Source: Paracoccaceae bacterium (GTDB taxonomy: Bacteria > Pseudomonadota > Alphaproteobacteria > Rhodobacterales > Rhodobacteraceae). From it: a stretch of 43,550 nucleotides of DNA. The stretch is from NCBI GenBank assembly GCA_013214575.1, contig JABSSD010000153.1:1-43550 (forward strand), written 5' to 3'. The notes beneath the pieces are model-generated. The model ran no database searches. It was not told the DNA's origin and saw only the letters and a program-made list of their open reading frames with translations. Position 1 is the stretch's first letter; each line of letters starts with the position of its first letter. This document shows positions 26,013 to 43,550 of this stretch, one piece after another. The position numbers and the translations under genes were made by a program.

Positions 26013-26087
26013 GGGTGATTAGCTCAGTGGTAGAGCGCTTCGTTCACATCGAAGATGTCAGGGGTTCAAATCCCTTATCACCCACCA
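26013..26087 (+). tRNA. tRNA-Val (CAC), prophage integration site
   Basis: A full cloverleaf is visible: the acceptor stem GGGTGAT/ATCACCC, the D arm with AGCTCAGTGGTAGAGC, the anticodon stem CTTCG/CGAAG with loop TTCACAT (anticodon CAC), the T arm GGGGTTCAAATCCC, and an encoded CCA. The integrase gene begins 64 bases downstream and points toward it, so the 3' end of this tRNA is the probable attachment site. I found no second copy of the 3' end in the window. Confidence 0.97.
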
Positions 26088-26150
26088 TCTATTCAATGAC
26101 TTAGCTGGTAATTACAAAGTGTTCCTCGGTTCATTGAACCTAAGCGCACT

Positions 26151-27158: not shown

Positions 27159-27316
27159 TGTTCAACTTCCTCAACGATTGCAGCTGGAATTCGGTATAGG
27201 CGGCCAAGGCGGAAGTGCTGCAGCTTCCCCTCATTGCACTGTGTGCGGATAGTGGTAGCACTGACACCCCACCGGTGGGCAAGGGTTTCAGCTGTGAAGG
27301 GCCGGAGCATTACCAT
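27035..27316 (-). CDS. Excisionase-like helix-turn-helix protein
   Basis: This 93-residue protein has an N-terminal winged helix of the excisionase/MerR-like type (FTAETLAHRWGVSATTIRTQCNEGKLQHFRLGRLYRIP, about 7-45), followed by a polar tail. Such proteins bind att-site DNA to direct excision or act as small regulators. ATG 27316 directly follows the methyltransferase stop, with GAGG just upstream, so the two are probably one leftward transcript running into int. Confidence 0.82.
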   Translation of the reverse strand: MVMLRPFTAETLAHRWGVSATTIRTQCNEGKLQHFRLGRLYRIPAAIVEEVEQCQTSASDVLEADTAFSGGKAGREDVISLRHVPERKPSQRQ

Positions 27317-29299
27317 CTATGCCTCTTTCTGTTCGGGGTGGGTGTCGGCGACCAGGTGGGCGCAGTTGGCGGCGGCCAGCGCGCGGGCGAGGCCCGGGCA
27401 GACGCTGTTGCCGCAGCAGCTGACCTGCTGGTGCTTGGTGAAGGGTTTGAAGGTCCAGTCTTCGCCGTCCTGGTGCCAGACACCTTCGATCACGTAATCG
27501 CGCGGGAAGCCCTGGGCGTTGAACAATTCGCGCGGGGTCAGCATCCGCATACCGATATCGACCACCACGTATTCGGTGCCCTTGATGGTGACGGTGACAA
27601 ATTCGCCGCCGTCCCAAACGCCTTGACTGCGCAGAAACTCGGCTACCTCGCGGGCCCGCTGATGGTGCTCGGTCGAGAACTCGGGCGCGGCCAGCTCGGC
27701 CTGCATGTGACCCATGCGATCCTTGACGGTGATTGTGTGCAGTGGTCCGTCGCTGCGGGCCCCATCACCGGTGCCGTAGTATTTGGCAAACCATGGGGCG
27801 ATCAGCCCGGACTTGCCGCCACCACCCGCTGTCACTGTGCCAAGGGGTTCCTCGACGGGGTGGCCGGTGCTCTGGCCAAAGTGGCGAACGATCGATGGCA
27901 TTATCACGCCTTGCTGCGATCCGGTGGCGGTGAGGGTGGAGATTGGCGCGTTGACAGCGCGGCCCGGATTGTGACCGGCGCGGGCTTTGTTGTGCTGTGC
28001 AAGAAACGGCGTCACAGCGGCGTGTTTGACGCCACCTGCAACCACTGTGCCCAATGGGGCATGGAGGTCCAAGGCGCGTGGCGCCTGACCTGGACGTTCG
28101 CCATAGCCGGTTTGCACCAGCAGAGGCGCGATAACCGCATTCTGGTCCTTCCTGCTGGCGGTGATCGTGTGGTGGGGCCCTGTAATGTCGCGCGACCGGC
28201 CGCCCTGCTGGGCATAGGTCAGAACCGGGGCGATCAGGGCATGGCGGTTCTCTACTGTGACCGTCCGCAATGGGGTTTGAAGGTCCGCAGCGCGTTTCCC
28301 TCGATTCCCGCCGTGGCCATAGAAGGTTGCAAGGCAAGGACTGATGATTCCTAGCGGTGCGGCGCCGCCCGGCTTCTTGATCCAGCTGTTTGCGGTGATC
28401 GTCGCCAGCGGGTCGCGTAGATCCTGACCGGTGGCACCGGTATTGAACCGCTGGACTGAGGGCGCGGTGGTCTGACCGCCCGGCAGCTCGACCACATAGG
28501 GGTTGTCAGCCTCCAGCACATAACGCTGCATACCGCGCGCCACACGGGCCATGGTGTTGACGGCCAGCGGGCGCTTGGCGCGCAACCCATGCTTTGCCTT
28601 GATCTGCTTTGCGGTATCGAAGATTGAGGGGCAGGGCAGCGACCAGTCAATGCATTCCGCCGCGCTGCGCCAGGGCAGCAGCTTGCCCTTTTTGACGGCT
28701 GCGCTTTTGGGGTCGCCGTGGCTCGGCTTGGGCCAAGTAATTGGCCGGCCGTCGCGACGCGCCACCATGAAGAACCGTTTGCGGATGGTCGGGTCGCCAA
28801 AATCGCAGGCGCGCAACTCGCCCCATTTCAATTTGTACCCAGCTTTTTTCAGGCGTTTCATCCATAGCTCAAAGGTGATGCCTGCGAATTCCTTGATCGG
28901 CTGGCCGTCATTGTCCACCGGGCCCCATGTTTTGAACTCTTCGACGTTCTCCATCAGGATCACATCGGGCTTCACCTTCTCAGCCCAGTCGACAATGACC
29001 CAGGCCAGATCACGGATATTGCGATCGCGCGGTGCGCCGCCCTTGGCCTTGCTGAAATGCTTGCAATCCGGGCTGGCCCACAACAGGCCGACAGGGCGGC
29101 CCTGCACCAGCTCGGTCGGTTCCACCTCCCAGATATTGCTATCCAGATGGATGGTGTCCGGGTGGTTGGCCTGGTGCAGCGCCAGGGCTGCGGCGCTGTG
29201 GTTGATGGCGTAGTCAGGGCTGCGGCCCAGAGCCATTTCAATCCCAGTGCTGGCGCCACCGCCTCCGGCAAAGCTGTCGATGATCAGTGGTGCGGTCAT
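27317..29299 (-). CDS. DNA cytosine-5 methyltransferase with seven-fold internal repeat
   Basis: This 660-residue enzyme methylates cytosine-C5 in DNA. The motifs are in order: I FAGGGGAS (10-17), IV ASPDCKHFS with catalytic C79, VI ENVEEF (117-122), VIII GDPTIRKRFFMVA (168-180), IX LTPRELFNAQGFPRDY (587-602), and X GNSVCPGLARAL (630-641). Between VIII and IX, at about 297-530, lie seven copies of a unit beginning P-[LIH]-x-T-[ILV]-T/V, often followed by an LIAPxL-like segment. Known C5 methyltransferases have their target-recognition region here. It probably protects phage DNA from host restriction. GGAGG precedes the ATG. Confidence 0.92.
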   Translation of the reverse strand: MTAPLIIDSFAGGGGASTGIEMALGRSPDYAINHSAAALALHQANHPDTIHLDSNIWEVEPTELVQGRPVGLLWASPDCKHFSKAKGGAPRDRNIRDLAWVIVDWAEKVKPDVILMENVEEFKTWGPVDNDGQPIKEFAGITFELWMKRLKKAGYKLKWGELRACDFGDPTIRKRFFMVARRDGRPITWPKPSHGDPKSAAVKKGKLLPWRSAAECIDWSLPCPSIFDTAKQIKAKHGLRAKRPLAVNTMARVARGMQRYVLEADNPYVVELPGGQTTAPSVQRFNTGATGQDLRDPLATITANSWIKKPGGAAPLGIISPCLATFYGHGGNRGKRAADLQTPLRTVTVENRHALIAPVLTYAQQGGRSRDITGPHHTITASRKDQNAVIAPLLVQTGYGERPGQAPRALDLHAPLGTVVAGGVKHAAVTPFLAQHNKARAGHNPGRAVNAPISTLTATGSQQGVIMPSIVRHFGQSTGHPVEEPLGTVTAGGGGKSGLIAPWFAKYYGTGDGARSDGPLHTITVKDRMGHMQAELAAPEFSTEHHQRAREVAEFLRSQGVWDGGEFVTVTIKGTEYVVVDIGMRMLTPRELFNAQGFPRDYVIEGVWHQDGEDWTFKPFTKHQQVSCCGNSVCPGLARALAAANCAHLVADTHPEQKEA

Positions 29300-30857: not shown

Positions 30858-31064
30858 TTGATTATTCAAGGCGATGAAAAGACAACCGAGGATGCCGCGC
30901 AGTTGAAAGCTCTTGCGCTCTTGAAGGAAGCAAGAAGGAAGTCCGGGATGAGTATGGATTTTTGGGCTGACCTTACTGAAGGTCTAGATCAGAGTTCCTT
31001 GGAGATCCTGGTAGGGAGATCATCGATCTTCCCAAAGTACAGAAACTCAAGTGACAAGCTGTAG
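30858..31064 (+). CDS. Possible small gene converging on the repressor
   Basis: A 68-codon frame from TTG 30858 (MIIQGDEKTTEDAAQLKALALLKEARRKSGMSMDFW). The first 45 residues look like a normal helical protein. The 3' part overlaps the end of the repressor gene by 76 bases on the other strand. It may be a truncated small regulator or not a gene; no family is recognised. Confidence 0.3.
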   Translation: MIIQGDEKTTEDAAQLKALALLKEARRKSGMSMDFWADLTEGLDQSSLEILVGRSSIFPKYRNSSDKL

Positions 31065-31264
31065 GTCTTCCGCAGCTTCTTGGCGGCAATAAGGGATAGC
31101 TCGCGTCTAGCGTTTTCAAATGCCCCATAGGCTTGCTCAGACATATCAGCACGCTCAGCAAATTCCTTTTTGCTGAGGTGTAGTACTTCACGCACCCTAA
31201 GCAGTCGTTTTGCGACGGCATCAATATTGTCTTCTTGGTCCTGCAACATAAGACAATAGTACAT
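30989..31264 (-). CDS. XRE-family phage repressor (CI-like, short)
   Basis: This 91-residue protein is essentially one helix-turn-helix domain: AVAKRLLRVREVLHLSKKEFAERADMSEQAYGAFENARRELS (about 16-57). There is no C-terminal LexA-like peptidase domain, so it is probably not inactivated by RecA-driven self-cleavage. ATG 31264 has GAGGAG ten bases upstream. It is divergent from a Cro-like gene over a 52-base gap holding two matching operators, so it very likely maintains lysogeny. Confidence 0.82.
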   Translation of the reverse strand: MYYCLMLQDQEDNIDAVAKRLLRVREVLHLSKKEFAERADMSEQAYGAFENARRELSLIAAKKLRKTYSLSLEFLYFGKIDDLPTRISKEL

Positions 31265-31284
31265 TAACTGATTACTCCTCACAC

Positions 31285-31299
31285 TGAACAAAATGCGTA
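31285..31299. promoter_or_regulatory. Phage operator O4 (weak)
   Basis: TGAACAAAATGCGTA agrees with O3 in 11 of 15 positions; its centre lies 24 bp from that of O3. It lies next to the repressor ribosome site. Confidence 0.45.
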
Positions 31300-31707: not shown

Positions 31708-32190
31708 ATGAGAAACGTAAAGCCGGGTTCGATACAGGCTGCGGTCCAATCGTCCATCAAGGCTGCTGGCGGCCTTGAATCTGCGGGCAATGATCTTGGG
31801 ATGTCCACAGCCAACCTCTCCCGTGCATCTTCCAATGATGAAGACAGGCCGGGCGGGTTGGGGGTGAACCATCTGCACCGGCTGGGGCGCATTCTGCCTG
31901 CATCGGCCGAACCTATAGCAGTCCACTTTGCAGGATTGGCAGGCGGGGTGTTTCAACCTGTCCCAGCCAGCGGCTCTTTGACGTCTGATCTCAGCGCCTT
32001 GATGAAGGATTTCGCCGACGTGGTGGCGCTTCATGCAAACGCTCACTCGGATGCTTCGGACAACCCAAGTGATTTCACCCCAGCCGAGGCTGTGGCCTCA
32101 GCCATAGAAGTCGAAAAACTTGTCCGGGCCGCTCTGGTTTACAAGGCGGCTCTAGAGGTCAAGGCCAAGGGGATGGTGGTCGTGCAATGA
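31708..32190 (+). CDS. Phage regulatory protein, CII/CP76-like (tentative)
   Basis: A 160-residue protein whose N-terminal part (AAVQSSIKAAGGLESAGNDLGMSTANLSRASS) reads like a helix-turn-helix with a following HLHRLGRILP helix. The layout recalls CII-type phage regulators. The C-terminal half is helical. GGAG precedes the ATG. It is the second rightward early gene after the Cro-like gene. The family assignment is a judgement from pattern only. Confidence 0.55.
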   Translation: MRNVKPGSIQAAVQSSIKAAGGLESAGNDLGMSTANLSRASSNDEDRPGGLGVNHLHRLGRILPASAEPIAVHFAGLAGGVFQPVPASGSLTSDLSALMKDFADVVALHANAHSDASDNPSDFTPAEAVASAIEVEKLVRAALVYKAALEVKAKGMVVVQ

Positions 32191-32295: not shown

Positions 32296-32766
32296 ATGCC
32301 TGACGTAATTGAGAAATGTGGCGGGGCGGCACCGGACGTCTGGCCACTGCGGCGAGGCGAAACCCTGTCCTCGCATGATTGGTTCCCCTTCTATGGGCAC
32401 CGGTTCTTGCATTCCCGGTTCCTGCGAAAGGCGGTCATGACAAACGTGAGGGCCGACATTGGTACTGCGTTAATCCTGTGGGCCGGGTCGATGAACGAAG
32501 ACCCGGCGGGCACCTTGCCGCAGGACGATATCGAGCTGGCAGATATATGTCGGGCATCAACCTGCAGGCGCTGGCCGAAGTGGTGGCCGCCAATCCCGGC
32601 GGCAAGGGTGCTGACCGGTTCCCGATTGCCAACAAGATCCTTGAGTGGGCCCGCCAGATCCAAACGCCCGAGGAAGATGCCTCGCCGTTGCAGCGGGCGG
32701 TTTTTGCGGCGCCGGTTGGGCGTGCAGCGCTGGAAGGGCTGTGGGCGCCTGAGTTGCTGGCACTGA
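32296..32766 (+). pseudogene. Truncated DUF1376-like phage replication-region protein
   Basis: From ATG 32296 (preceded by AGGAG), residues 1 to about 85 read as a normal protein: DVWPLRRGETLSSHDWFPFYGHRF, then TALILWAGSMNEDPAGTLPQDDIELADICR. This recalls the conserved start of DUF1376-type phage proteins. After that the frame turns into an arginine/proline-rich translation that is the shadow of the next gene's frame. The likely cause is a deletion or frameshift joining two genes. A shortened protein could still be made. Confidence 0.5.
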
Positions 32767-32981
32767 TAAAGGCGGAACGAAAATGGCCGGGTCGGTGGTC
32801 GGTTTCGCAGATTAAGGCACAAGCCGATGATGCGGTACGGCGGTTGCGGGATGTTGAAATGCGTTTGTCGCGCGGTGATCAGCTGAACCAGGAGGATCTG
32901 CAATGGCGTGACCGCCGACGCGCCGCAATCCAGCACTGCCAGGATATTGCCGTCATGGCTCAGAGTGGGGTGCAGGTATGA
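32547..32981 (+). CDS. Phage early protein of unknown function
   Basis: A 144-residue, mainly helical protein starting MSGINLQALAEVVAANPGGKGADRF. The C-terminal part (WSVSQIKAQADDAVRRLRDVEMRLSRGDQLNQEDLQWRDRRRAAIQHC) is charged and helical. No family is recognised. It overlaps the out-of-frame tail of the previous gene. Its stop overlaps the next start (ATGA), so it is translated with the next gene. Confidence 0.6.
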   Translation: MSGINLQALAEVVAANPGGKGADRFPIANKILEWARQIQTPEEDASPLQRAVFAAPVGRAALEGLWAPELLALIKAERKWPGRWSVSQIKAQADDAVRRLRDVEMRLSRGDQLNQEDLQWRDRRRAAIQHCQDIAVMAQSGVQV

Positions 32982-33688
32982 ATGCAGTGGTTGTGATCGT
33001 CTCGCCCGACGGTTCGGCGCGGTTGGAGGCTGAGCGCGTCAGAATTGATGCGGTCAAAGCTGCGGGACATGTGCCGCCCGAATGTGGTTCCGAGATCCCC
33101 GAGGCCCCGGCGCGCGGTGCGTTCCGTGTGTTTCAGCCGCACCAACTGTATCCAGAGGGCGCCGAGGGCTATTCCAGCAAACCGGCGGGCTATCGTGGCT
33201 GGTCTGCGATTCAGCGCGCCGATGCCTTTGACGTAATGGCAGCCAAGGCCGCGCGGCACCGCAAGCCGTCTCCGTTCTCACCTGGGCAAGTGCAGATGGG
33301 GCGGCATTATCGCGATTTGATAGAGCGCTATGAAAGCGTCGGCATCAAGTGTTCCTCGCTCGAAAGTCTGGGATCGGGTGGAGGTCAGGGCGGCGGGTTC
33401 ATCGACGCTGTACTGCGGGATCGGGAAGAGATTGACCGGTTGCGCCGCCGCATCGGAACGGGTTCCGCTATGGTGGTGCGCCGCATCCGCCCGTCAAGGC
33501 GTGGTTCCCGTGTTTCGATCACGGATCGACGGTTGGTTGATATGGTTTGTCTAGAAGGCAAAACTTTGAGCGACGTGTTGCGGTCGCATGGGTGGTCAAT
33601 CAAAGGTGATTTGGTAAAAGCGCTGAGTATTGCTTTAGGCGAAGCACTTTGTCGTATGGGTGAAAGCTCTCGAAGTTCAATCAGATGA
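32978..33688 (+). CDS. Phage protein with C-terminal helix-turn-helix-like region
   Basis: A 236-residue protein. The N-terminal part is variable and proline-rich. From about residue 105 (QMGRHYRDLIERYESVG) it is basic and helical, ending in ITDRRLVDMVCLEGKTLSDVLRSHGW, which resembles a DNA-binding helix-turn-helix. The position just before HNH nuclease and terminase suggests a late-gene activator or antiterminator. That is inference; I do not recognise the family. Its 3' end overlaps the convergent gene by 12 bases. Confidence 0.6.
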   Translation: MNAVVVIVSPDGSARLEAERVRIDAVKAAGHVPPECGSEIPEAPARGAFRVFQPHQLYPEGAEGYSSKPAGYRGWSAIQRADAFDVMAAKAARHRKPSPFSPGQVQMGRHYRDLIERYESVGIKCSSLESLGSGGGQGGGFIDAVLRDREEIDRLRRRIGTGSAMVVRRIRPSRRGSRVSITDRRLVDMVCLEGKTLSDVLRSHGWSIKGDLVKALSIALGEALCRMGESSRSSIR

Positions 33689-34519
33689 GCGGGTTTTTAT
33701 TGACTCGAAAGTGATTTGAAAACTCTGAAATTTCTCATGATTTTTAAAAAGAGGAATAAATTCCTCGACTGAGCCGGAGTGCTCCAATTCTGACTGAAGG
33801 GTTGCTATCATATAAACAAGGAGGTGGTTGTCAGGAATTGCTTTTTGCAAAAGAGGTAAAAAATCGTTCGCCAGTTCGGCCCGGTTCATCGCTTTGAGAG
33901 CTGCATGCGATTCTTCGAAGGAGGTTCGTCTTTTGAGAGCTAAATAATTCGGATCTGGAAAGCAGTATTTCTGCAATAGCTCAATATCTCCTTCTAGAGT
34001 GCTATCATCATCCCAGCTGTCTAAATGAGTTCTAAGTAATTCTGCAACATTTAAACTATCAGAATAGTGTATATCACCTCCCGTTAAGCCATTAGTTCTT
34101 ACGATTTCAATGAGGCGGAGAGCTCGCTCTTCGAGGGTGCGATTTAATAGTTCCCTTTCGACGAGTTTTGACTGTTCCAGTTGATGATCAAAAGTCTTTT
34201 GGGCCAATTGTCGCTCTTGTCTAATCTCATTTAGTTCAATGCGTTGCAATCGCATGGTGACCATCAGCCCAAGAAAAGCCGCCCCTGTAAATATGGAGGT
34301 CGTAAAACCGAAAGCATCGCCAAAAACACCGCTACCGAATCCAGCGTCAGAGTTAGCGATTGAGCGATACCATATGTGAGTGAAGTCTGCAGCGTACAAT
34401 GTGGCAATCATTACGGAGATACCTAGAAGGCCAGCCGCCCTAAAAAAGACTGTCATTCCGTCCGCAAGCCGGTCGCCTGTGCCTTTAGTGCCGGTGTTTT
34501 TTTTCGTGTTATCTATCAT
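33677..34519 (-). CDS. Putative phage abortive-infection (AbiC-like) membrane protein
   Basis: A 280-residue protein with two N-terminal helices (RAAGLLGISVMIATLYAADF and SIFTGAAFLGLMVTM). A coiled coil (RLQRIELNEIRQERQLAQKTFDHQLEQSK) and a cytoplasmic helical domain follow. The segment GSGVFGDAFGFTTSIFTGAAFLGLMVTMRLQ-x-x-EL is the characteristic stretch of the putative phage abortive infection (putAbiC) family. It faces against its neighbours, is AT-richer, and looks like a lysogen-expressed moron that could exclude other phages. The activity is inferred from family resemblance only. Confidence 0.65.
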   Translation of the reverse strand: MIDNTKKNTGTKGTGDRLADGMTVFFRAAGLLGISVMIATLYAADFTHIWYRSIANSDAGFGSGVFGDAFGFTTSIFTGAAFLGLMVTMRLQRIELNEIRQERQLAQKTFDHQLEQSKLVERELLNRTLEERALRLIEIVRTNGLTGGDIHYSDSLNVAELLRTHLDSWDDDSTLEGDIELLQKYCFPDPNYLALKRRTSFEESHAALKAMNRAELANDFLPLLQKAIPDNHLLVYMIATLQSELEHSGSVEEFIPLFKNHEKFQSFQITFESIKTRSSD

Positions 34520-34680
34520 TGGGTTGCCTGATCATTAACTGCCTTACGGTTGTCTATTTCTTTTTCTGGTTGACTGCTAGTCCATCAGCATGCCAGTAAT
34601 TGCATATCATCACCAAATGCGCCCACGGGAAACCGGCGGGCGTTTTTGCGTTGGGGCTTTCAAAAACTGTTGGTGGGACT

Positions 34681-35082
34681 ATGGCGCAGCTTAAGGTTTG
34701 TGCAGCTGCTGGCTGCGAAGAGATATCGGTGCCTGGTCTGCCTCACTGCGATGAACATGAGCAGCGCCGCAAGGATCGACTGAAACAGCAGCGGGCCAAG
34801 GCGCAGACCTTACCGGCAGCTGTCATGGCCCGGCGTCTCTATGCAGATCCAAAGTGGGTGCGCGCCAGCAAGGCATTCCTGCGGGACAACCCGCTGTGTG
34901 TCGATTGCCTGGAGTTGAACGTGGTTGAGGCGGCAACGGACGTGGACCATATCGAGCCTCACAAGGGCGATCGGAAACGCTTCTGGACCCGAAGCAACTG
35001 GCAGGCGCTCTGCCATCGGTGTCACAGCCGCAAAACAGCCCATGAGGTGTTCCACCGCAAGGGGGGGGGTATCTCAAAATAG
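34681..35082 (+). CDS. HNH endonuclease
   Basis: A 133-residue protein with two cysteine-rich parts: an N-terminal CAAAGCEEISVPGLPHCDEH, perhaps a small zinc site, and a C-terminal HNH nuclease domain (CVDCL, VDHIEPHKGD, NWQALCHRCHSRKT). HNH proteins next to terminase genes assist DNA packaging cleavage in many phages. ATG 34681 is chosen over 34600, which adds residues unlike the family. It is followed by the small terminase gene. Confidence 0.9.
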   Translation: MAQLKVCAAAGCEEISVPGLPHCDEHEQRRKDRLKQQRAKAQTLPAAVMARRLYADPKWVRASKAFLRDNPLCVDCLELNVVEAATDVDHIEPHKGDRKRFWTRSNWQALCHRCHSRKTAHEVFHRKGGGISK

Positions 35083-35171: not shown

Positions 35172-35612
35172 ATGAAGGGACGAAAGCCAAACCTCCAGAA
35201 TGTCGTTCCTATGAAGGGGGATATTCAGAAAGAGATTCCAGCAGCGCCGGATTTTCTTTGTGATATTGGTCGGGATGTCTGGGACGAGCTGGCACCTGAG
35301 TTGGCGAAACGGGGCAGGCTTGAATTGCTCTACAAATATCAGTTCGGGTCATACTGCGCCGCAGTTGCAAATTTCATTTCATCGACCGACACGCTGGCGA
35401 TGGAAGGTCTGTTTTATGAGACGGGCAAGGGGCGCAACGGCAATCAGCGGCGCAGGCATCCAGCGCTGACACTGCAAGAAAACTCAACGTCCATCATGCG
35501 CCGAGATTCAGCACTGTTTGGGCTGTCTCCAGTTGATGCCTCTCGGCTTGATACCGGTGTGCAAGGTGACTTTCTCAAAAATGTCTTGGACCAGCTGAAT
35601 GGAACCGATTGA
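35172..35612 (+). CDS. Terminase small subunit, P27 family
   Basis: A 146-residue protein with the P27-type pattern: MKGRKPN at the start, then PAAPDFLCDIGRDVWDELAPEL and LQENSTSIMRRDSALFGLSP near the end. Terminase small subunits bind the phage packaging site. AAGGAGG lies nine bases before ATG. It overlaps the large subunit gene by 14 bases. Confidence 0.85.
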   Translation: MKGRKPNLQNVVPMKGDIQKEIPAAPDFLCDIGRDVWDELAPELAKRGRLELLYKYQFGSYCAAVANFISSTDTLAMEGLFYETGKGRNGNQRRRHPALTLQENSTSIMRRDSALFGLSPVDASRLDTGVQGDFLKNVLDQLNGTD

Positions 35613-36750
35613 CCATCCGGTATCCCGCTATGCGATCGGAGTTGTAGAGGGGGATATCGTTGCCGGTGATCTGGTGCGGATGGCCTGCGAACGCCATTTG
35701 ATGGATCTGGAAACTGGTGCGGATCGCGGATTGTATTTTGATTGCCAAGCCGCCAGCCGGATTATCCGTTGGGCCAGGATGCTGCAGCACACCACCGGGC
35801 CAATGGCAGGTATGCCGCTAAAATTGGAGCCCTGGCAAGAGTTTCGCCATGGGTCTGTGTTTGGTTGGAAGCGATCGGAAACGGGGCTGCGCCGGTTTCA
35901 GTCTACCTATCACCAAGTGGGCAAGAAGAACGGCAAGACCACCGACACGGCAGTGCCAATGCTGTTCACGCAGTTGTTCGACGGCGAGGCCGCGCCGCAG
36001 GGCTATTGTGCAGCGACCACCAAAAATCAGGCCGGGCTGCTGTTCAAAGAAATGAAGCGCATGATCAAGCGGTCGCCGATTTTGAAAGAATTCATGGACG
36101 TTTCGCGAACGTCGATCGAGACGCCTGAATCTGATGGTTTGATCGCTTGCTTGAGCCGCGACGGTGATTCATCGGATGGGATCAACCCGAGCTTTTTGGC
36201 GCGCGACGAAATGCACCGCTGGACGGATCGCGAACTGGCCGACACCATTGTTGAAAGCATGATAGCCCGCGCCCAACCGATTGATTGGGTGATCACCACT
36301 GCCGGGCAGTCGCGTGATTACGTCGGTGCAGGCGCATTGCTGGACCCGGAACCAATCACGTCGCAGCCGGGCCTTGATGTGCGTATTCACCAGCTGAGAT
36401 TGTCGGCGGTTTTGCCCAAGGTCGAAGACCTGGTGAAGGGGTATGACACCCGGTTTGCGCCAGTGGAAATGCACCGGGCGCTGTTCCATCCGCAAACCCG
36501 CCAGTTGGTGGCGGAACCGCACCGTATTTTCAAAGGCATGATTGACCAGATCACATTCCCGCGTGAGGCGCCCGGTGGTTCGCCGGCCTGTGTGATTTCG
36601 GTGGCCTCGGAAACCCGAATTCTGACCCGCTCTCTGGCCAGCAAGAAATCTGACGAAAGCCACAAGGCGCGGGGTGGCGACCGATTTCGCCGCAATGCAG
36701 TCGCGTCTGGAACTGTGCAGGTGTTCTGGGGCGAGAAAAAGCTGGAGTGA
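35599..36750 (+). pseudogene. Chimera: terminase large subunit ATPase half fused to phage tail protein
   Basis: The open frame has 383 codons; large terminases of this type usually have about 550. Residues 1 to about 240 are terminase: EPWQEF, Walker A-like VGKKNGKT (108-115), Walker B LARDEMH (200-206) and the coupling motif TTAGQS (233-238). From about residue 242 (GAGALLDPEPITSQPGLDVRIHQLRLS) to the end (LTRSLASKKSD, ARGGDRFRR, VQVFWGEKK) it reads as the C-terminal half of a tail-tip-region protein that normally precedes the DUF6950 gene. The nuclease domain is gone. An in-frame deletion joining the two is the simplest explanation. Confidence 0.75.
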
Positions 36751-36822
36751 CCCGCAAGCCAACGGTGTTTGCACCATCAGGCGGTCATGTTGAGCCGCGA
36801 ACTGGCGACGATAGGTAAGGTG

Positions 36823-37251
36823 ATGAAACAAGAACTGACAATTACCGCGCGGCTGCCAGACTGGCGACCGCGCCTTTCGGCGTATCTGGCCGAAAACGGA
36901 GCCCGGGCGTTTCGGCCCGGGTTCCATGACTGTGCCTTGTTTGCTGCAGGCGCTGTCGAGGCCATGACAGGTACGGATGCGGCTGCCCAGTGGCGCGGCA
37001 CCTATCGCAGTCTGGAGGATGGCCAGTCGTTGCTGCAGCGGGCGGGTTATAGCGATCATGTGGCGCTGGTGGCGGCGTATTTGTCCGAGGTGCATCCCTC
37101 CCAGGCCGCCGTCGGGGATCTGGCTGCGCTGCCGGGGTCTGATGGCCGCCCAGCCTTGGGCGTTGTTCAAGGGGCATCGGTCTATGTGTTGCAGCCTTCG
37201 GGCATGGCTCTGGTCAATCGCTTGCAGATCGAAAGGGCGTTTCGCGTATGA
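36823..37251 (+). CDS. DUF6950-like phage tail-assembly protein
   Basis: A 142-residue protein with FHDCALFAAGAVEAMTG (about 27-43), resembling the active-site cysteine region of NlpC/P60-like tail proteins, and GDLAALPGSDGRPALGVV. It belongs to the set of genes just before the tail-tip host-specificity protein in Rhodobacteraceae phages. The start ATG 36823 has AAGG close by. It overlaps the next gene by ATGA. It looks intact although its neighbours are truncated. Confidence 0.7.
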   Translation: MKQELTITARLPDWRPRLSAYLAENGARAFRPGFHDCALFAAGAVEAMTGTDAAAQWRGTYRSLEDGQSLLQRAGYSDHVALVAAYLSEVHPSQAAVGDLAALPGSDGRPALGVVQGASVYVLQPSGMALVNRLQIERAFRV

Positions 37252-37607
37252 AAAAGATCGAAATGGCCGGTTGGGCTCTGGTGCTTTTCCTGCTGCCGGA
37301 CGCTGCGCAGGCTGCATTCATTGGCGTGGCAATCAAGGCAGTTGCGCTGTTCGCAGGCACGGGCACGATCGGTGCCTTTGTTGTGCGCATTGGCATATCC
37401 ATGGCGCTATCGGCGCTGGCGGTGGCGCTTAAGGGCAAGCCGAAGGCTAGCGCCGCTACTGGGATCAAAACAGAAACCAGCACCGGGGGCACCAATCCTC
37501 AGTCGTTTATTCTGGGGCGCTATGCCACTGGCGGCAATCTGGTGGCGCCTGGCTGTCGTGCTGATCATCTACGGGATCATTGGCAGGTTGAGAGACCAGG
37601 GCATTGA
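37248..37607 (+). pseudogene. Truncated tail-tip (host specificity) protein
   Basis: The N-terminus has a hydrophobic segment (IEMAGWALVLFLLPDAAQAAFIGVAIKAVALFAGTGTIG), and residues 90-101 (SFILGRYATGGNL) recall the early part of J-like tail-tip proteins. These normally run for about 1000 residues or more. Here the frame leaves the family after LVAP (about residue 103, near base 37550) and ends 16 codons later. The bases after that point belong to a holin-like helix in another frame. A deletion of most of the gene is the likely cause. Confidence 0.65.
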
Positions 37608-38085
37608 TCAAACCAAGCTGCGCAGCTCGGGTGTCGCCGCCTTTCTGGCGGTCGCGCTGCCGTTGATCGGCGCCTGGGAGGGCCAGCGCAACCATGCCTA
37701 TCTCGATATGGTTGGGGTGCCGACGATCTGCTTTGGCCACACCAAGGGCGTCCAGCTTGGCGACTATCTGAGTGATACCCAATGCGCGGATCTGTTGCGC
37801 TCTGAGGTGCTGGAATTTCGCGAGGGGTTGCACGGATATTTCAGCGCCGCCACCAAGTTGCACCGCCTGCCGCCAGAGCGGGATGCCGCCTATGTCAGCC
37901 TCGCCTACAATGTCGGGGTGCGCGGGACAGGGCGCAGCACTGCCACACGCCGCCTGAACGCGGGCGACATCGCTGGTGGCTGTCAGGCGCTGACCTGGTG
38001 GAACAAGGCCGGGGGGCGGGTGGTGCGTGGTCTGGTGCGGCGTCGGTCAGGTGAATACCAGCTTTGCATGATTGGTCTGGGCTAA
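37588..38085 (+). CDS. SAR-type endolysin (GH24 lysozyme)
   Basis: A 165-residue muramidase. The T4-lysozyme catalytic triad has canonical spacing: E31-x8-D40-x5-T46 (WEGQRNHAYLDMVGVPT). The weakly hydrophobic stretch just before it (GVAAFLAVALPLIGAW) fits a signal-arrest-release anchor, which lets the enzyme reach the periplasm without a holin. AYNVGVRG and the C-terminal RR-x-GEYQLC fit the family. The start is uncertain: TTG 37588 is my choice, because the upstream frame (RLAVVLIIYGIIG) looks like a leftover holin helix fused by deletion. Confidence 0.85.
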   Translation: MRDQGIDQTKLRSSGVAAFLAVALPLIGAWEGQRNHAYLDMVGVPTICFGHTKGVQLGDYLSDTQCADLLRSEVLEFREGLHGYFSAATKLHRLPPERDAAYVSLAYNVGVRGTGRSTATRRLNAGDIAGGCQALTWWNKAGGRVVRGLVRRRSGEYQLCMIGLG

Positions 38086-38408
38086 TGCAGGCCCTGGTGC
38101 TGCGCAATCTGCCTGCGCTGGGGCTAGCCCTAGTGCTGTTGGTGGCGGTGGCATGGCTGGTCAACCTGGTGCAGGACCGCACCCAACTGCAGGGCGAGCT
38201 GGCCGCTGTCAAGATCGAGGTGGCCACCGCCCGGGTGGCGCAAGATCAGGCCCTAGAGGCCGCCCGCGTCCACCGCGCCCATCTGGCCCGGGCCGCTGAT
38301 CAGGCCCGCCAGTTCGACATTATCCGCAACGAATTGCAAGAAATGGAGGGCCGCAATGCGCCTTTATCTCCTTTGCTGCGTGCTACTGCTGAGCGCCTGT
38401 GGCCCTGA
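38085..38408 (+). CDS. Rz-like inner-membrane spanin subunit
   Basis: A 107-residue protein with one N-terminal helix (LPALGLALVLLVAVAWLVNLV) and a long periplasmic coiled coil (QGELAAVKIEVATARVAQDQALEAARVHRAHLARAADQARQF). It starts on the last base of the endolysin stop (TAATG). A lipoprotein gene is nested in its 3' end in another frame, the classic Rz/Rz1 arrangement for outer-membrane disruption at lysis. Confidence 0.8.
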   Translation: MQALVLRNLPALGLALVLLVAVAWLVNLVQDRTQLQGELAAVKIEVATARVAQDQALEAARVHRAHLARAADQARQFDIIRNELQEMEGRNAPLSPLLRATAERLWP

Positions 38409-38604
38409 TCCACTTGTTGTCATGGCGCCGCCACTCCAAGTACCGGCAGATCTGTTGCGGGGCTGTGCTGGTTGGACCGGGCCGGTGCCGCGCAATGAAG
38501 GGCAATGGGCTGATGCCGCCTGGGCTGAGATGCGCGGGCGGTACTGCGCCAATGGCCGCATCGAAACCATTGCCGAAATTCTGAACCCGAGCGGGCCGCG
38601 CTGA
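38356..38604 (+). CDS. Rz1-like outer-membrane spanin lipoprotein
   Basis: An 82-residue protein with a lipoprotein signal (MRLYLLCCVLLLSAC, lipid-bearing C15) and a proline-rich start to the mature part. It overlaps the Rz-like gene by 53 bases in a different frame. Together with Rz it would fuse inner and outer membranes after endolysin action. Confidence 0.78.
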   Translation: MRLYLLCCVLLLSACGPDPLVVMAPPLQVPADLLRGCAGWTGPVPRNEGQWADAAWAEMRGRYCANGRIETIAEILNPSGPR

Positions 38605-38719: not shown

Positions 38720-38854
38720 CGGGCCTTTTCTGGACAATTAAGCCGATTGGGTGTCGGAGCACATACTGTCGGCATGCTACAACAAAACCGATACCGGCCA
38801 CCGGGGGGGCTAGATCGCCCACAGCACGAGCGGTACCAACTGAACCAGCTCGGC

Positions 38855-39334
38855 TTACTTACAAGTAGGGTAGCCCCCCATCTGGATGATCTTGTTACCC
38901 TTAATCCGGTAATAGCCAGTGGTCTTGTACCTGCCTGTCTCCATGAACCAGCGGGCCAGTGGCTCTGGGTAATGACTGGCAATCAGTCGGCTCCAATATT
39001 CAAATCGATCCGGTGACAGCGCCTGCCCATAATAGGTAGGGCCATGAAAGCCAAAAGTGGTGGACGGATTGATGCAGACATCTCCAGCCCCCAGATACAT
39101 GGTGCAGGATGACATGCATCTGCTGAGTCTGATCTCCACATGTTGTCGTGAATTTCGCAGCCAGGCGATTTCGTTGGCGCGGTGGCGCACCAATCCACCT
39201 CGATAATTCGAGACGATGAAAACTTGACCGGATTCTGAGTTACTGTGCGGTACCAGTCCCACCCCAGCAGCCAAGATGACTGCCACGAACAGGACGCGAC
39301 GCACAGACTCGTACGCAACAATAGTGACTTTCAT
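38855..39334 (-). CDS. Periplasmic ClpP-like fold protein (COG3904-like, tentative)
   Basis: A 159-residue protein with a signal sequence (SVRRVLFVAVILAAGVGLVPHS). The core GGLVRHRANEIAWLR, then VEIRLSRCMSSCTMYLGAGDVCINPSTTFGFHGP, resembles exported proteins with a ClpP/crotonase-like fold. The paired cysteines of CMSSC and the FGFHGP loop are typical. Whether it is a protease is unknown. It points against the lysis genes and may be cargo. Confidence 0.6.
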   Translation of the reverse strand: MKVTIVAYESVRRVLFVAVILAAGVGLVPHSNSESGQVFIVSNYRGGLVRHRANEIAWLRNSRQHVEIRLSRCMSSCTMYLGAGDVCINPSTTFGFHGPTYYGQALSPDRFEYWSRLIASHYPEPLARWFMETGRYKTTGYYRIKGNKIIQMGGYPTCK

Positions 39335-39832
39335 TGCTATTTCTCAATGCAATAAAACGACGGACTACCCTCGGACCCTCTTCGGCTCGAAAATCTATGC
39401 CTGCATCCTTAACGTCCCGTTTGGAAACGGGTCGCTCTTTGTGCAAAAAATATGGTTTAATTACATTGATTTAGGGGGAGGGTGCTTCTGGAAGTTTCTG
39501 CGATTTGTAGTCGCCTTTGGAGCGGTCCCAGTACCTAATAATTCCAAAGTAAAGCGCCAGAAGGAAATGTCACGCGTCGGGCGCCATTTTTTTTCAACCT
39601 GAAAAAAATCCATTTGCTAATGGCGGGGCAGTTCAGATCCCTTCGTTTGGCTCCATCATTTCTTTCTCGTGCCCATATCAGGAAGTGAACCAAGTTTTGG
39701 ACAGACAGATCATGGCGCTAACCCATGCATTTTTTGGGGGTTAGTTGGACGTATTTCAAATCGATATAAGTTATATCCTTTGCATAACTTATATAACTTG
39801 TGCAAGTCGTAAAAATCGCGCTATCGGTAGGA
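39335..39832. promoter_or_regulatory. AT-rich gap with paired inverted repeats
   Basis: About 500 bases without a clear gene. CTAACCC (39719-39725) can pair with GGGTTAG downstream (about 39738-39744). ATATAAGTTAT (39764-39774) and its complement ATAACTTATAT (39784-39794), with a 9-base spacer, lie just before the ribbon-helix-helix gene and are its likely operator. Confidence 0.5.
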
Positions 39833-40024
39833 ATGGGGAATCGAAGCTTGTCAGATCACTACATCCGGCTGGGAATGAGCAATGAAATGCGTGCGCGCAT
39901 TGAAGAGTGGCGCATTGCGAACCGTGACCCCGAGACAGGAAAGATGGTTTCCTTCTCAGAAGCGGCACGCCTATTGATTCATGCGGGACTTGCGGGCAAG
40001 ATCCTGACAATCAACCCAAAGTAG
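39833..40024 (+). CDS. Ribbon-helix-helix regulator
   Basis: A 63-residue protein with a short strand (SDHYIRLGM) followed by two helices (NEMRARIEEWRIAN and SFSEAARLLIHAGL), the Arc/CopG pattern. Such proteins bind DNA as dimers through the strand and often repress their own operon. The start is uncertain (ATG 39833 or GTG 39800). A strong inverted repeat lies 39 bases upstream. It is 24 bases before the next gene, so the two likely form an operon; an antitoxin role is possible but unproven. Confidence 0.7.
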   Translation: MGNRSLSDHYIRLGMSNEMRARIEEWRIANRDPETGKMVSFSEAARLLIHAGLAGKILTINPK

Positions 40025-40048
40025 GTGATGTAGTAAAAGGAACTTCCT

Positions 40049-40528
40049 TTGAAACGTGTAGTAAAAGAAGCCGTAGAATCCAGAAAGAGGGCGTCCGTAA
40101 CGGCGCACCGATACCTGCCGTCAAAAGAGGGCCAGGTGGAGGCTGCAAGGGCCTGGGGTGTTCCGGTTGACCGCTTTCCGGGTGTTGGTGATATTTCGCC
40201 ACTTTACGTTGATGATGTTCGAAAGCTGGGCCGCACTACAAATTGGCCGGCGAAACTGCCGATGCGCGCTGTAATGTTTCGGGAACTTGCTCTGGGGCTA
40301 GGGCCGGATGATCAGGTGTTTTTCTATAGCCCGCTATGCGTTGGGTTTTCCGAGAAACATGCGCGGGACGTAATCGAGGCAGTGTGGGACAAGGATCATA
40401 TGATCTATGTTCATACGCTCGAAGCGCTGTATCGCAAGGGCGACGACCTGGCTGGGTTCTTTGACCTGCACGGCAAGGAATTGAAGGCCGCGCAGATGCG
40501 CGACTATCGAAGCAAGAAACCTAAGTAG
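40049..40528 (+). CDS. Unknown protein coupled to the ribbon-helix-helix gene
   Basis: A 159-residue protein with a TTG start and a good ribosome site (AAAGGA six bases before it). The middle (RAVMFRELALGLGPDDQVFFYSPLCVGFSEKHARDVIEAVWDKDHMIYVHT) has the strand-helix rhythm of the serine-resolvase catalytic fold. A catalytic serine motif is not evident, so that resemblance may be only structural or accidental. It ends in a basic RSKKPK tail. I do not recognise the family. Confidence 0.6.
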   Translation: MKRVVKEAVESRKRASVTAHRYLPSKEGQVEAARAWGVPVDRFPGVGDISPLYVDDVRKLGRTTNWPAKLPMRAVMFRELALGLGPDDQVFFYSPLCVGFSEKHARDVIEAVWDKDHMIYVHTLEALYRKGDDLAGFFDLHGKELKAAQMRDYRSKKPK

Positions 40529-40540
40529 GGAGCAGTAGGA

Positions 40541-41350
40541 GTGGGATCGAGTATCGAAACTTCTGATCAGCCTGATGTCTTATGGCACTATACGACATTT
40601 TCAACTTTGAGAAAGATTGTCGAAACCCAGTCTCTCCTTGGGAGGGATTACCGTCTGTTGAACGATAGCACAGAGGTTAAACAAGGGGCAAAATGGATTG
40701 CCGACTGGGTCCGTCACCAGAAGGACTTTGATTATGGGCCTGATGGGGCTGACTATTTCTGTGACCGTCTAGAGGATTTTGAAGAAGAAGCGTGTCCCTT
40801 TGTAATTTCCTTTTCAGCAGCTCGCGATAAGTTATCGATGTGGCGGGGATATGCCGATGCCGTACATGGGAGTGAAGGGGTCGCCATTGGATTCGATCGG
40901 GCTGATCTTAGGGCAATTACCTACGAGTCAAACTTTATAGGACCTACTGCTGTTGCCTATGACCACAATAGTTTTCTGAAGATTGTATCAGTGGTGACAG
41001 ATTTCGATCTCACGCCTTTAAGTGGTTGGGAAGGTTATTTGAATTTGAAAATGGTACCAGCATTGGTGAAGCATGAAGCATTCGTTGAGGAAGCCGAATG
41101 GCGGATCGCAGACCTCTATCCATATAAGAACCTGGGGACGGAATTTGTTGAAGTTGAAGGCGAGCAAAGGCTAAAGCTCAAGCTTACAACGAATAAAGTA
41201 TCACTCAATTACATGTGTGGTATCCGGAAAGTGCTAGTAGGCCCTAAAGGAAATAAGGCCGCCGTTGATAACTTTGTGCGGGTAGCGCTAAGGGGTGAAG
41301 CCGGAACCTCTAATGTCTTGGTGGAAAAATCAGACATTCCGTTCCTTTGA
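40541..41350 (+). CDS. DUF2971-like protein
   Basis: A 269-residue soluble protein with a GTG start. It has the family pattern LWHYTTFSTLRKIVETQSL, then LNDSTEVKQG (about 33-50), then VISFSAARDKLSMWRGYADAVHGSEGVAIGFDR (about 87-119), and VEEAEWRI near residue 184. The family's function is unknown. The opening HYT-x-x-x-L-x-x-I recalls proteins of the ADP-ribosyltransferase fold, which is a guess. It follows the previous gene by 12 bases and is AT-richer than the phage genes. Confidence 0.75.
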   Translation: MGSSIETSDQPDVLWHYTTFSTLRKIVETQSLLGRDYRLLNDSTEVKQGAKWIADWVRHQKDFDYGPDGADYFCDRLEDFEEEACPFVISFSAARDKLSMWRGYADAVHGSEGVAIGFDRADLRAITYESNFIGPTAVAYDHNSFLKIVSVVTDFDLTPLSGWEGYLNLKMVPALVKHEAFVEEAEWRIADLYPYKNLGTEFVEVEGEQRLKLKLTTNKVSLNYMCGIRKVLVGPKGNKAAVDNFVRVALRGEAGTSNVLVEKSDIPFL

Positions 41351-41445
41351 ATGGATGGCACTCTGAATAGAGTAATGCCCTGCCACGCATGGATTGGCGG
41401 GGTTTGTACTGGAGTAGAGCAGTGGTGCAGAACCCTTCCCCCGGC

Positions 41446-41460
41446 AGTCCAACAAAGGAG
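41446..41460 (+). repeat. Boundary motif, copy 1
   Basis: AGTCCAACAAAGGAG. It lies 96 bases after the DUF2971-like stop and 54 bases before the next ATG, so it is not simply that gene's ribosome site. Confidence 0.6.
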
Positions 41461-41514
41461 AGTTTGATTAAACTGCACACGTAGAACATTTACGAAATTT
41501 CATGGATATCAATT

Positions 41515-42018
41515 ATGAATTCTATCGACTTGTACACATTGATTATTGCTGGCGGATCGCTTTGTGTTGCTGCAATCACCTTGATCGCCGCTTTCTTGCA
41601 GACATCAATGACCAACAGATCCTCTAGTGAACTTCAGACACTTATTAGTTTTCGTGAGATGTCTAAGGAATACGATCACACAGTTGGAATGAACATAATT
41701 TCAGGGTTGTCTTGCACAAGCTATGACGATTTTTTGAGTGAGGTACCTAAGGACGACCAAATTGCCGTTCGCAACTGTGTGGAGTTTTTGAATTTTGTTG
41801 CGATTATGACCCGTGCAGGACACATCAGAAAACAGAGTGTTTGGGATGTGTATTTTGTGTCATTCCGAAAGATGGGTGAAAAGTTGTCTCCATGGTGGTT
41901 CGTGGGAGAACGTCTGAATTATCCTCAAAAATTCAAGTCAGCGCAAGCTATGGCTAGTGATGTTTTGAACATTACCGAGGAGGAAATCTCAAATTTTGAT
42001 CGGGCGATCACTGGATAG
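41515..42018 (+). CDS. DUF4760-like membrane protein
   Basis: A 167-residue protein with one N-terminal helix (LYTLIIAGGSLCVAAITLIAAFL). A cytoplasmic helical part follows, with RNCVEFLNFVAIMTRAGHIRKQSVWDVYFVSF, the pattern of DUF4760 proteins. A single-helix anchor plus soluble domain is common among phage-defence effectors, but no activity is known here. It sits in the AT-rich cargo block. Confidence 0.6.
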   Translation: MNSIDLYTLIIAGGSLCVAAITLIAAFLQTSMTNRSSSELQTLISFREMSKEYDHTVGMNIISGLSCTSYDDFLSEVPKDDQIAVRNCVEFLNFVAIMTRAGHIRKQSVWDVYFVSFRKMGEKLSPWWFVGERLNYPQKFKSAQAMASDVLNITEEEISNFDRAITG

Positions 42019-42029
42019 TATATTTTTGA

Positions 42030-42044
42030 AGCCCAACAAAGGAG
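42030..42044 (+). repeat. Boundary motif, copy 2
   Basis: AGCCCAACAAAGGAG, 12 bases before ATG 42057, so its AAGGAG also serves as ribosome site. Confidence 0.6.
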
Positions 42045-42056
42045 GGAAGTCTCAGC

Positions 42057-42338
42057 ATGACTGAAGATAATGGGTTTAGGCTTTATCGTTGGCGAACCGA
42101 TCCGAGCTTAATTGAACAACTGATCGAGCGCCGATTTTCCGCCCCTGAAGATGCAACTGAGGATATCAGTGTTGGCGGCTGGCAATTGGACCCTCATGCC
42201 CACGCCGAAGACATTGAAAACCTAAAGGCGGCAGTTGACGAGGTGGTTAGGGATGCGAAGTGCGCAGAGGATTTGAGCGGTGCACTGATTGAGATCGTTA
42301 GGATGGCACTCGCAGAGGGTGACCGAGAGTCCAACTAA
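42057..42338 (+). CDS. Small acidic protein of unknown function
   Basis: A 93-residue, strongly acidic protein: NGFRLYRWRTDPSLIEQLIERRF, then SVGGWQLDPHAHAEDIENLKAAVDEVVRDAKCAEDL. No family is recognised. It ends in ESN, and the codons for SN plus the stop form part of boundary motif copy 3. Its ribosome site is supplied by copy 2. Confidence 0.6.
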   Translation: MTEDNGFRLYRWRTDPSLIEQLIERRFSAPEDATEDISVGGWQLDPHAHAEDIENLKAAVDEVVRDAKCAEDLSGALIEIVRMALAEGDRESN

Positions 42339-42342
42339 GGAG
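42328..42342 (+). repeat. Boundary motif, copy 3
   Basis: AGTCCAACTAAGGAG, containing the stop codon of the 42057 gene and leading straight into the hairpin at 42342-42382. No start codon with good context follows directly. Confidence 0.6.
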
Positions 42343-42382
42343 CGGCCTGCGGACACTTGATGGGGGTAAGTGCGCAGGCCGC
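42342..42382. other. Strong RNA hairpin of 15 bp with 2-base bulge
   Basis: GCGGCCTGCG (42342-42351), bulge GA, CACTT, loop GATGGGGGT, AAGTG, CGCAGGCCGC (42373-42382). There is no T run after it, so it is not a plain terminator. It could be an attenuator, an mRNA cap or a processed small RNA. Confidence 0.65.
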
Positions 42383-42438
42383 AATTTCCACCTGTTGCTC
42401 TGGTAGATTTTATATAGACTAGTACAATCAGGACATGC

Positions 42439-42451
42439 GTCCAAAAAGGAG
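42439..42451 (+). repeat. Boundary motif, copy 4 (shortened)
   Basis: GTCCAAAAAGGAG, eight bases from its last AAGGAG base-set to ATG 42459; it serves as the ribosome site there. Confidence 0.5.
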
Positions 42452-42458
42452 CAGGGAA

Positions 42459-42692
42459 ATGCTGCATGAGGCGGTGAGCAACGCGCTCACAAACATGAAC
42501 CGAAGAATTTTCCAAGGTGCCGACGTGAACGCAGGTCCCAGTTGGTATGACTACCTTTGGATACCAGCCATGATTGCCTGGGCTTGGCATAAGTATCCTA
42601 ATCCCCTGGGAATGGTAGCGCCGTTGATCCTTGTAGGTGTGTGGATCACGTATTTAGTCATGTGGCATGCGGGCTGGAGAAAGTCCAACTAA
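42459..42692 (+). CDS. Small two-helix membrane protein
   Basis: A 77-residue protein with two predicted helices (DYLWIPAMIAWAWH and LGMVAPLILVGVWITYLVMWHAGW). ATG 42459 follows AAGGAG at good spacing; ATG 42435 would add eight residues. The last residues KSN and the stop fall in boundary motif copy 5, just as the previous small gene ends in ESN within copy 3. No family is recognised. Confidence 0.6.
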   Translation: MLHEAVSNALTNMNRRIFQGADVNAGPSWYDYLWIPAMIAWAWHKYPNPLGMVAPLILVGVWITYLVMWHAGWRKSN

Positions 42693-42696
42693 GGAG
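42682..42696 (+). repeat. Boundary motif, copy 5
   Basis: AGTCCAACTAAGGAG, identical to copy 3 and again containing a TAA stop. It is followed by GGCCG-GGACAA-CGGCC (42696-42711), a short hairpin. Confidence 0.6.
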
Positions 42697-42751
42697 GCCG
42701 GGACAACGGCCGGTCAACTGCTTGATATGAGGGCAAGTGAAGTCTGCGAAG

Positions 42752-43345
42752 TCAGGAGAAGTCCGTGCCGCCGCCGGGATTAATAGCATATGAGAATGTC
42801 ACTTCGTCTCGGTCATCGTCGCGGGAAGCATCCTTTACGTCGTGGATTTGCACACAGGCGAAGTTTCCATGTTGGTTCTCAAGGCAAAAAACCTGACCCT
42901 CTTCCGGAATCACCGATCGATTTGAGTAGTTTAGGGCTGTCACGTCCTTCAATTCGGAAATCTGCCCCGCGCCCTGTGCTATCGCGATTTTCTTAATGTC
43001 CGGTGGGTCTCTGTAAACATGGATACTTCGGTCACTCGCTTTCGAGAATTGTAACGTGAACTCAAGGTCAGCCCGTCCAATCGCGAACTGGTGATTGTTG
43101 CTCATGTAGTCGCAGGTATTTCGACCCTTTATCCGCCTGTTAGCGTATCCAGGTTTCCACGGCCAATATGAGGCAAGTAGCGTTGCAGTACCTCCGAAGA
43201 GGACAGCGATTGGTTCCATTGGAAACCACCACTCAACTATTTCTGCAATGAGCCACACACATGAAAGGATGAGAAACGATATACCTAGCCAGAACAACAG
43301 CCGCTTTTGGCCGCGCTGGAGACGAAAGAGTGTATTGTGAAACAT
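42752..43345 (-). CDS. Two-helix membrane protein with soluble C-terminal domain
   Basis: A 197-residue protein. Two N-terminal helices (LLFWLGISFLILSCVWLIAEIVEWW and IAVLFGGTATLLASYWPW) lead to a cytoplasmic domain of about 125 residues, probably mostly beta (FAIGRADLEFTLQFSKASDRSIHVY, VFCLENQHGNFACVQIHDVKDASRDDDRDEVTFSYAINP). The C-terminal domain looks like a conserved module, but I cannot name it with certainty. It is the only leftward gene in this block. Membrane anchor plus sensor or effector domain fits a defence cargo, by inference. Confidence 0.65.
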   Translation of the reverse strand: MFHNTLFRLQRGQKRLLFWLGISFLILSCVWLIAEIVEWWFPMEPIAVLFGGTATLLASYWPWKPGYANRRIKGRNTCDYMSNNHQFAIGRADLEFTLQFSKASDRSIHVYRDPPDIKKIAIAQGAGQISELKDVTALNYSNRSVIPEEGQVFCLENQHGNFACVQIHDVKDASRDDDRDEVTFSYAINPGGGTDFS

Positions 43346-43410
43346 CCTGCACTTATAAGGGTAGTCAACATCAGTTCAATGTGCTTCTGCACTTGAAGCG
43401 GTTATTGATC

Positions 43411-43425
43411 AGTCCAAAAAAGGAG
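43411..43425 (+). repeat. Boundary motif, copy 6
   Basis: AGTCCAAAAAAGGAG, nine bases before ATG 43435; its AAGGAG is that gene's ribosome site. Confidence 0.55.
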
Positions 43426-43434
43426 ACGGCGACT

Positions 43435-43550
43435 ATGGCCGATGAATGCAACATGTGTGATGTCCTGGCCGCTGCCGATCGCGGCATGGCGGCGTGGGAT
43501 GGTGACCAGTTTACCGAGGCCGATCGAGCTGACTACATCAAAAGCTTGAA
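43435..43550 (+). CDS. Start of an unknown gene (partial, runs off the window)
   Basis: The first 38 codons read MADECNMCDVLAAADRGMAAWDGDQFTEADRADYIKSL. C5 and C8 form a CxxC-like pair. GC content is higher than in the cargo block before it. No family can be named from this fragment, and it may be phage or chromosomal. Confidence 0.6.
   Translation, partial: MADECNMCDVLAAADRGMAAWDGDQFTEADRADYIKSL

Follow-up and report, generated by a model that had tools for sequence, protein, structure and literature searches.

An open terminase–tail reading frame in a prophage integrated in tRNA-Val of a Paracoccaceae bacterium is best read as a deletion scar

The window, which is the whole stretch of 43,550 bp that was analysed, carries an integrated phage element that begins within the gene for tRNA-Val (Table 1). 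A second att repeat was sought within the window and not found there; the copy sits on contig C124, where the 3' end of tRNA-Val occurs a second time without the tRNA. Since the final 92 bases of the window (43459–43550) are exactly equal to the end of contig C124, this contig adjoins that of the window and holds attR. With the attL core included and the attR core left out, the element has a length of 20,554 bp. In G003, a genome of the same genus, both flanks are adjacent and overlap over the tRNA end, which is the unoccupied site, with an additional ~0.17 kb of DNA to the right of it. The element thus exhibits one characteristic of a defective prophage, namely integrated phage DNA with an integrase gene and 47-bp att repeats in tRNA-Val.

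Table 1. Features of the element in the window
Feature	Position	Strand	Basis
tRNA-Val (cac), integration target	26013–26087	+	ARAGORN
attL core, 47 bp	26042–26088	+	identical to attR on contig C124, 66113–66067, minus strand
Tyrosine integrase	26151–27158	-	Pfam Phage_integrase 5e-23; 86% and 85% identical in viral records L150 and L151
Excisionase-like helix-turn-helix protein	27035–27316	-	weak PHROG excisionase matches, best E 3.5e-4
C5-cytosine DNA methyltransferase	27317–29299	-	Pfam and PHROG
CI-type repressor	30989–31291	-	HTH_3; PHROG repressor families; 78% identical to G003 copy 2
CII-like activator	31708–32190	+	PHROG 101, E 1.3e-5
Two genes, 32379–32981 and 32978–33688	32379–33688	+	98% and 88% identical to G003 copy 2 over matched parts; no Pfam/PHROG match
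HNH endonuclease	34600–35082	+	Pfam and PHROG
Terminase small subunit, open frame intact	35172–35612	+	Pfam Terminase_4 7.6e-17
Fusion frame	35599–36750	+	terminase ATPase codons 1–237, then tail-protein C-terminus
Deletion junction 1	36304–36309	+	GGGCAG, last letters common to intact terminase genes
Tail-protein C-terminal remnant (PHROG 2048), without N-terminal part	36310–36750	+	
DUF6950 tail-module gene, start codon uncertain	36769–37251	+	Pfam DUF6950 8.8e-45
J-like tail gene, first ~98 codons	37248–37541	+	PHROG 5616; matches residues 1–97 of the 983-aa L137 J-like protein
Deletion junction 2, about here	37538–37545	+	out of frame for J
Lysozyme gene without original start	37538–38085	+	Phage_lysozyme 5e-34; 93% DNA identity to G003 copy 2
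Rz-type gene	38064–38408	+	no family match; 91% identical to G003 copy 2
Rz-like spanin	38356–38604	+	PHROG 456
Cargo region	38724–43550		DUF2971 (40541–41350), DUF4760-like (41515–42018), others; continues on C124

Between the phage genes, a 280-aa protein with two segments that by eye appear to be membrane-spanning is encoded on the minus strand (33677–34519). It has no match in Pfam, PHROG or PADLOC, and it may be a gene of the moron or abortive-infection type. When eight genes were submitted to PADLOC, two were matched (the methyltransferase by its families and the DUF2971 protein weakly by PDC-S31). Beside attR the cargo comprises a 766-aa FG-GAP repeat protein (L161, 12717–15017). A stretch of 15 bases, AGTCCAACAAAGGAG, is found five times in the cargo region with at most one mismatch (41446, 42030, 42328, 42682 and 43411); its copies end in AAGGAG, which is like a ribosome-binding site, and a similar stretch lies near the start of the remnant on contig C80 described below.

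The frame 35599–36750 had been described as one that starts as a large terminase, turns into a tail protein and nevertheless stays open. All three points are confirmed: translation yields 383 aa, Pfam TerL_ATPase matches residues 78–240 (E 8.3e-68), and PHROG tail family 2048 matches residues 235–381 (profile positions 218–362 of 390; E 1.1e-24). Codons 1–237 are the ATPase half of a phage large terminase. Residues 238–383, for which a terminase C-terminus had been named as the alternative, match tail proteins instead. A 555-aa relative exhibits an additional terminase-family match at residues 249–547, which is the nuclease half. A functional large terminase requires both an ATPase and a nuclease half, and the fusion frame holds only codons 1–237 of it; because the nuclease half is missing, the fusion protein probably has no role in packaging.

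DNA identity to two prophage copies in G003 (85% and 86%) stops exactly at 36309, the final base of codon 237, so the join is at about 36304–36309, where GGGCAG makes up codons 236–237. The preliminary description had put the change at 36313–36340, which is slightly too far to the right; its wider interval of 36280–36370 does include the join. Both G003 copies have terminases of 555 aa, which are 94% identical to residues 1–241 of the window protein.

What the join has removed can be read from IMG/VR record 3300029585_000086 (L085, stretch L137), in which the ATPase part of the terminase is 76% identical to that in the window. Its gene order is HNH, small and large terminase, portal, protease, major head protein, connectors, tape measure, distal tail, PHROG 2048, DUF6950 and J, the proteins between terminase and PHROG 2048 being portal, head maturation protease, major head protein, head-tail adaptor, tail completion/neck protein, tape measure and distal tail protein. 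The window has HNH and the small and large terminase followed by PHROG 2048, DUF6950 and J in this same order, but lacks the 11,069 bp that the viral record retains between the points joined in the window (arithmetic on the alignment ends, with terminase residue 237 at 3247 and the second tail residue at 14320). The claim that everything from the terminase nuclease half through the distal tail genes is missing therefore holds. In G003 copy 1 the family order is likewise portal, protease, capsid, tape measure, distal tail, PHROG 2048 and J. Terminase nuclease half, portal, capsid and tape measure, all present in relatives, were not found in the element, and the loss of these particle-essential genes is a second characteristic of a defective prophage. 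Elsewhere in the same genome the portal of G003 has a relative only as residues 1–210 on contig C169, and the HK97-type capsid (PF05065) is confined to two contigs: C169, which has a C-terminal piece of it, and C34 (L146, G000), where it belongs to a gene transfer agent cluster. This cluster comprises GTA_TIM, hub, NlpC/P60, capsid, portal and terminase.

Among 89 relatives of the terminase in genome and viral contigs, which are not all independent since some are apparently one prophage present in both collections, 79 have their full length, and the other 10 are truncated at an edge of the available DNA or no more than 40 bases from it. None of the 88 that reach the join carries the fusion; the 89th (L076) ends before it. 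A further chimeric gene across the join was found neither in 61 genomes (own genome included) nor in genome contigs or viral contigs, collections that may omit this genome or very near ones, and the exact 36-base junction sequence has no match in viral contigs. In annotated phages 1,736 records match the 383-aa protein and none covers 80% of the query. A full-length homologue in intact phages, which had been named as a finding against the deletion, was thus not encountered in any of these searches.

Two explanations other than deletion of phage DNA followed by decay should be considered here. The first is that two prophage copies were misjoined in the draft assembly, for which it can be said that the draft has 218 contigs and three remnants of one phage family. 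There is, however, no other copy of 36300–37540 in the genome; the only other copy of the terminase N-terminus, that on C80, shows identities of 76% and 84% in its two blocks of the terminase region and is itself broken; and the contig end overlaps C124 exactly, which gives a consistent attL/attR pair. An assembly chimera is judged very unlikely. The second is that a chimeric protein was selected after the deletion, for example as an ATPase decoy directed against other phages. This would be in line with the open frame and with the codons of the terminase part: when compared with eight close relatives, two of them alike, codons 1–237 of the window have 12 private synonymous changes and no private non-synonymous one, and the single non-synonymous change that was counted is in codon 238, beyond the join. 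The eight relatives themselves have 0–12 synonymous and 0–2 non-synonymous private changes. This pattern agrees with a deletion that postdates most of the divergence, and the same lack of decay would also be expected if the terminase part had remained in use. Against a selected protein stand the missing second occurrence in the genomes, genome contigs and viral contigs searched and the fact that comparable deletions preserve the frame about as often as chance would have it (see below). We give this explanation next to no probability.

There is no close DNA relative of the tail segment 36310–37537 among the 61 genomes, so the pre-deletion state is reconstructed from protein relatives, which are 28–58% identical (the nearest, L122, 58%). 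The tail module of G003 was rejected as the direct parent of 36310–37537, there being no DNA match in that segment. At the place where the window has Q-S-R across the join, 4 of 12 tail relatives have Q-x-R (L004, L122, L126 and L137), two have Q-R (L117 and L119), and six have no Q (L003, L123, L124, L125, L127 and L128). GGnCAG, which would match the GGGCAG of the terminase, is present in L004 and L122, and L137 has GGTCAA. With this short repeat in just 2 of the 12, a short-repeat deletion is possible but weakly supported.

A second junction, unmentioned in the preliminary description, joins the start of the J-like tail gene to the lysozyme gene. Similarity to J runs to 37541, and identity on the lysozyme side begins at 37538, the window and G003 both reading TCTGGTGG there; the start of J is followed by unrelated out-of-frame codons up to a stop at 37607. 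From 37538 identity to G003 copy 2 resumes and continues at 93% to 38723, across lysozyme and two Rz-type genes, and the lysozyme frame of G003 copy 2 begins further upstream than that of the window. The two blocks that copy 2 has in common with the window are 15,800 bp apart in copy 2 and 1,228 bp apart in the window. Copy 2 shares with the element lysozyme, Rz-type genes, HNH, small terminase and repressor; the G003 copies differ in that they have kept the full 555-aa terminase and have a tail module of a diverged type. DUF6950, which lies between the two junctions, was found in 14 of 47 records or genomes bearing a terminase relative (for single-contig virus records the figure is 8 of 26), and several of these matches are weak (E 9e-4 to 9e-31). 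The gene remnants broken at the scars 36304–36309 and ~37538–37545 are the third characteristic of a defective prophage.

Remnants of the same phage family elsewhere allow an estimate of what deletions usually do to the frame. Three were compared with G003 copy 1, namely C169 (3 scored deletions), C80 (10) and L014 (1). The remnant on C80 (L023, G000:C80, 142–2983) is from the same genome; roughly ten internal deletions are spread over it between HNH and the lysis region, and its terminase breaks off near codon 231. That on C169 (L145, G000:C169, 9207–13348) is the third in the genome; here the start of HNH is joined to the terminase from about codon 232, and the N-terminal half of the portal is joined to the C-terminus of the capsid, both joins being out of frame. 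In L014 (1256–1757), which is from G003, a piece of the small terminase precedes terminase DNA that reaches to about codon 249. The 14 scored deletions have net losses of 52 to 7,945 bp, and in five of them there are unaligned bases at the join. The frame is kept at 4 of the 14 junctions, which is near the one third expected by chance. Of the two junctions in the window, only the first preserves the frame.

On the coordinates of G003 copy 1 the breaks of the window (13005), C80 (12987) and C169 (12989) all lie in the terminase gene and within 18 bp of one another. In 20,000 simulations with 29 break ends distributed evenly across the region, an equally tight triple came up 279 times; since the simulation was run after the cluster had been seen, it is a hint only that plain random deletion does not readily explain the cluster. 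The segment 36291–36309 of the window and its counterparts on C80 and C169 are possibly a recurrent break site.

It had also been suggested that the element could be a streamlined satellite which obtains capsids from a helper phage. Such a satellite would excise with its own integrase and direct packaging via its small terminase. The element does have open frames for integrase, excisionase-like protein, repressor and small terminase, has both att sites, is 20.6 kb long without capsid genes, and has terminase codons 1–237 without decay. For comparison, satellites are given a size of 7 to 20 kb in PMC13376191. The phage-inducible chromosomal islands described in PMC6092414 resemble the element in having an integrase, att sites, sometimes a small terminase, and no capsid gene. 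The Gram-positive islands are listed there as about 15 kb long, with their own att sites and pri/rep genes, and as being without structural or lytic genes, whereas the element retains lytic genes and structural remnants; its length is 20,554 bp. Lysozyme, spanin-type genes and the remnants of structural genes (DUF6950 and tail pieces) persist, the J and lysozyme genes being cut, and no primase, helicase or initiator match was obtained in the ORFs scanned (none in 25 ORFs, 23 from the window and two from C124, with Pfam and/or PHROGs, several ORFs being matchless and many small ORFs lying outside the scan). The capsid matches of the own genome are those of the gene transfer agent and the broken piece.

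Nor is there an indication of a conserved lineage separate from phages, the fusion being present in none of the 88 informative relatives and the relatives of the integrase including full phages. Among 11 such relatives in viral contigs, PF05065 capsid and PF04860 portal occur together in three, including those with 86% (G108) and 73% (G094) identity, the latter of which carries the same terminase family as the window. The other eight, including the 85% identical G109, have no PF05065/PF04860 match, and these records may be fragments. The proposal of borrowed capsids has thus found no positive support; a satellite is rejected as the main reading and considered very improbable. Somewhat different is the proposal that the element is at an early stage of the change from a prophage to a helper-dependent satellite, in which excision and packaging in trans by a related phage would remain possible. 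The element has retained its integrase, the two att sites, the repressor, the small terminase and the lysis genes, and the capsid and most tail genes are gone; we regard such a change as very improbable.

We consider it very likely that the element is the prophage of a temperate tailed phage in tRNA-Val which has become defective through at least two large internal deletions. The exact break relative to full-length terminases, the collinear viral record, the second deletion and the more strongly deleted sister remnants all speak for a deletion, as was originally proposed, and for a dead prophage, one of the two alternatives first offered. The fusion is most readily understood as the scar of a chance deletion within it. 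One deletion would have taken ~11 kb between the terminase and the tail gene, the frame being kept by chance, and another most of the J-like gene together with the beginning of the lysozyme gene, without keeping the frame of J. Both may have come about by recombination between short chance repeats, the deletion event would be recent, and virions would no longer be produced. In the incomplete prophages of Khan et al. (2020; PMC7744054), the integrase is reported as kept, and genes for packaging and particles, as well as those for release, as lost. The element agrees with these incomplete or cryptic prophages in the retained integrase and the missing packaging and particle genes, and differs from those covered there in that its lysis genes are kept, both att sites are intact and one join is readable to a few bases. 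The retention of lysis genes counts against a defective prophage, since release genes are usually lost in incomplete ones.

The element looks like the ordinary decay of a dormant virus in a marine-type bacterium. It is a clear example of prophage decay, because the break is readable to a few bases, full-length terminases are available from the same genus, and the small sample of deletions in other remnants matches chance framing. It should be kept in mind that an open fusion frame need not mean a functional protein and that an island without capsid genes need not mean a satellite.
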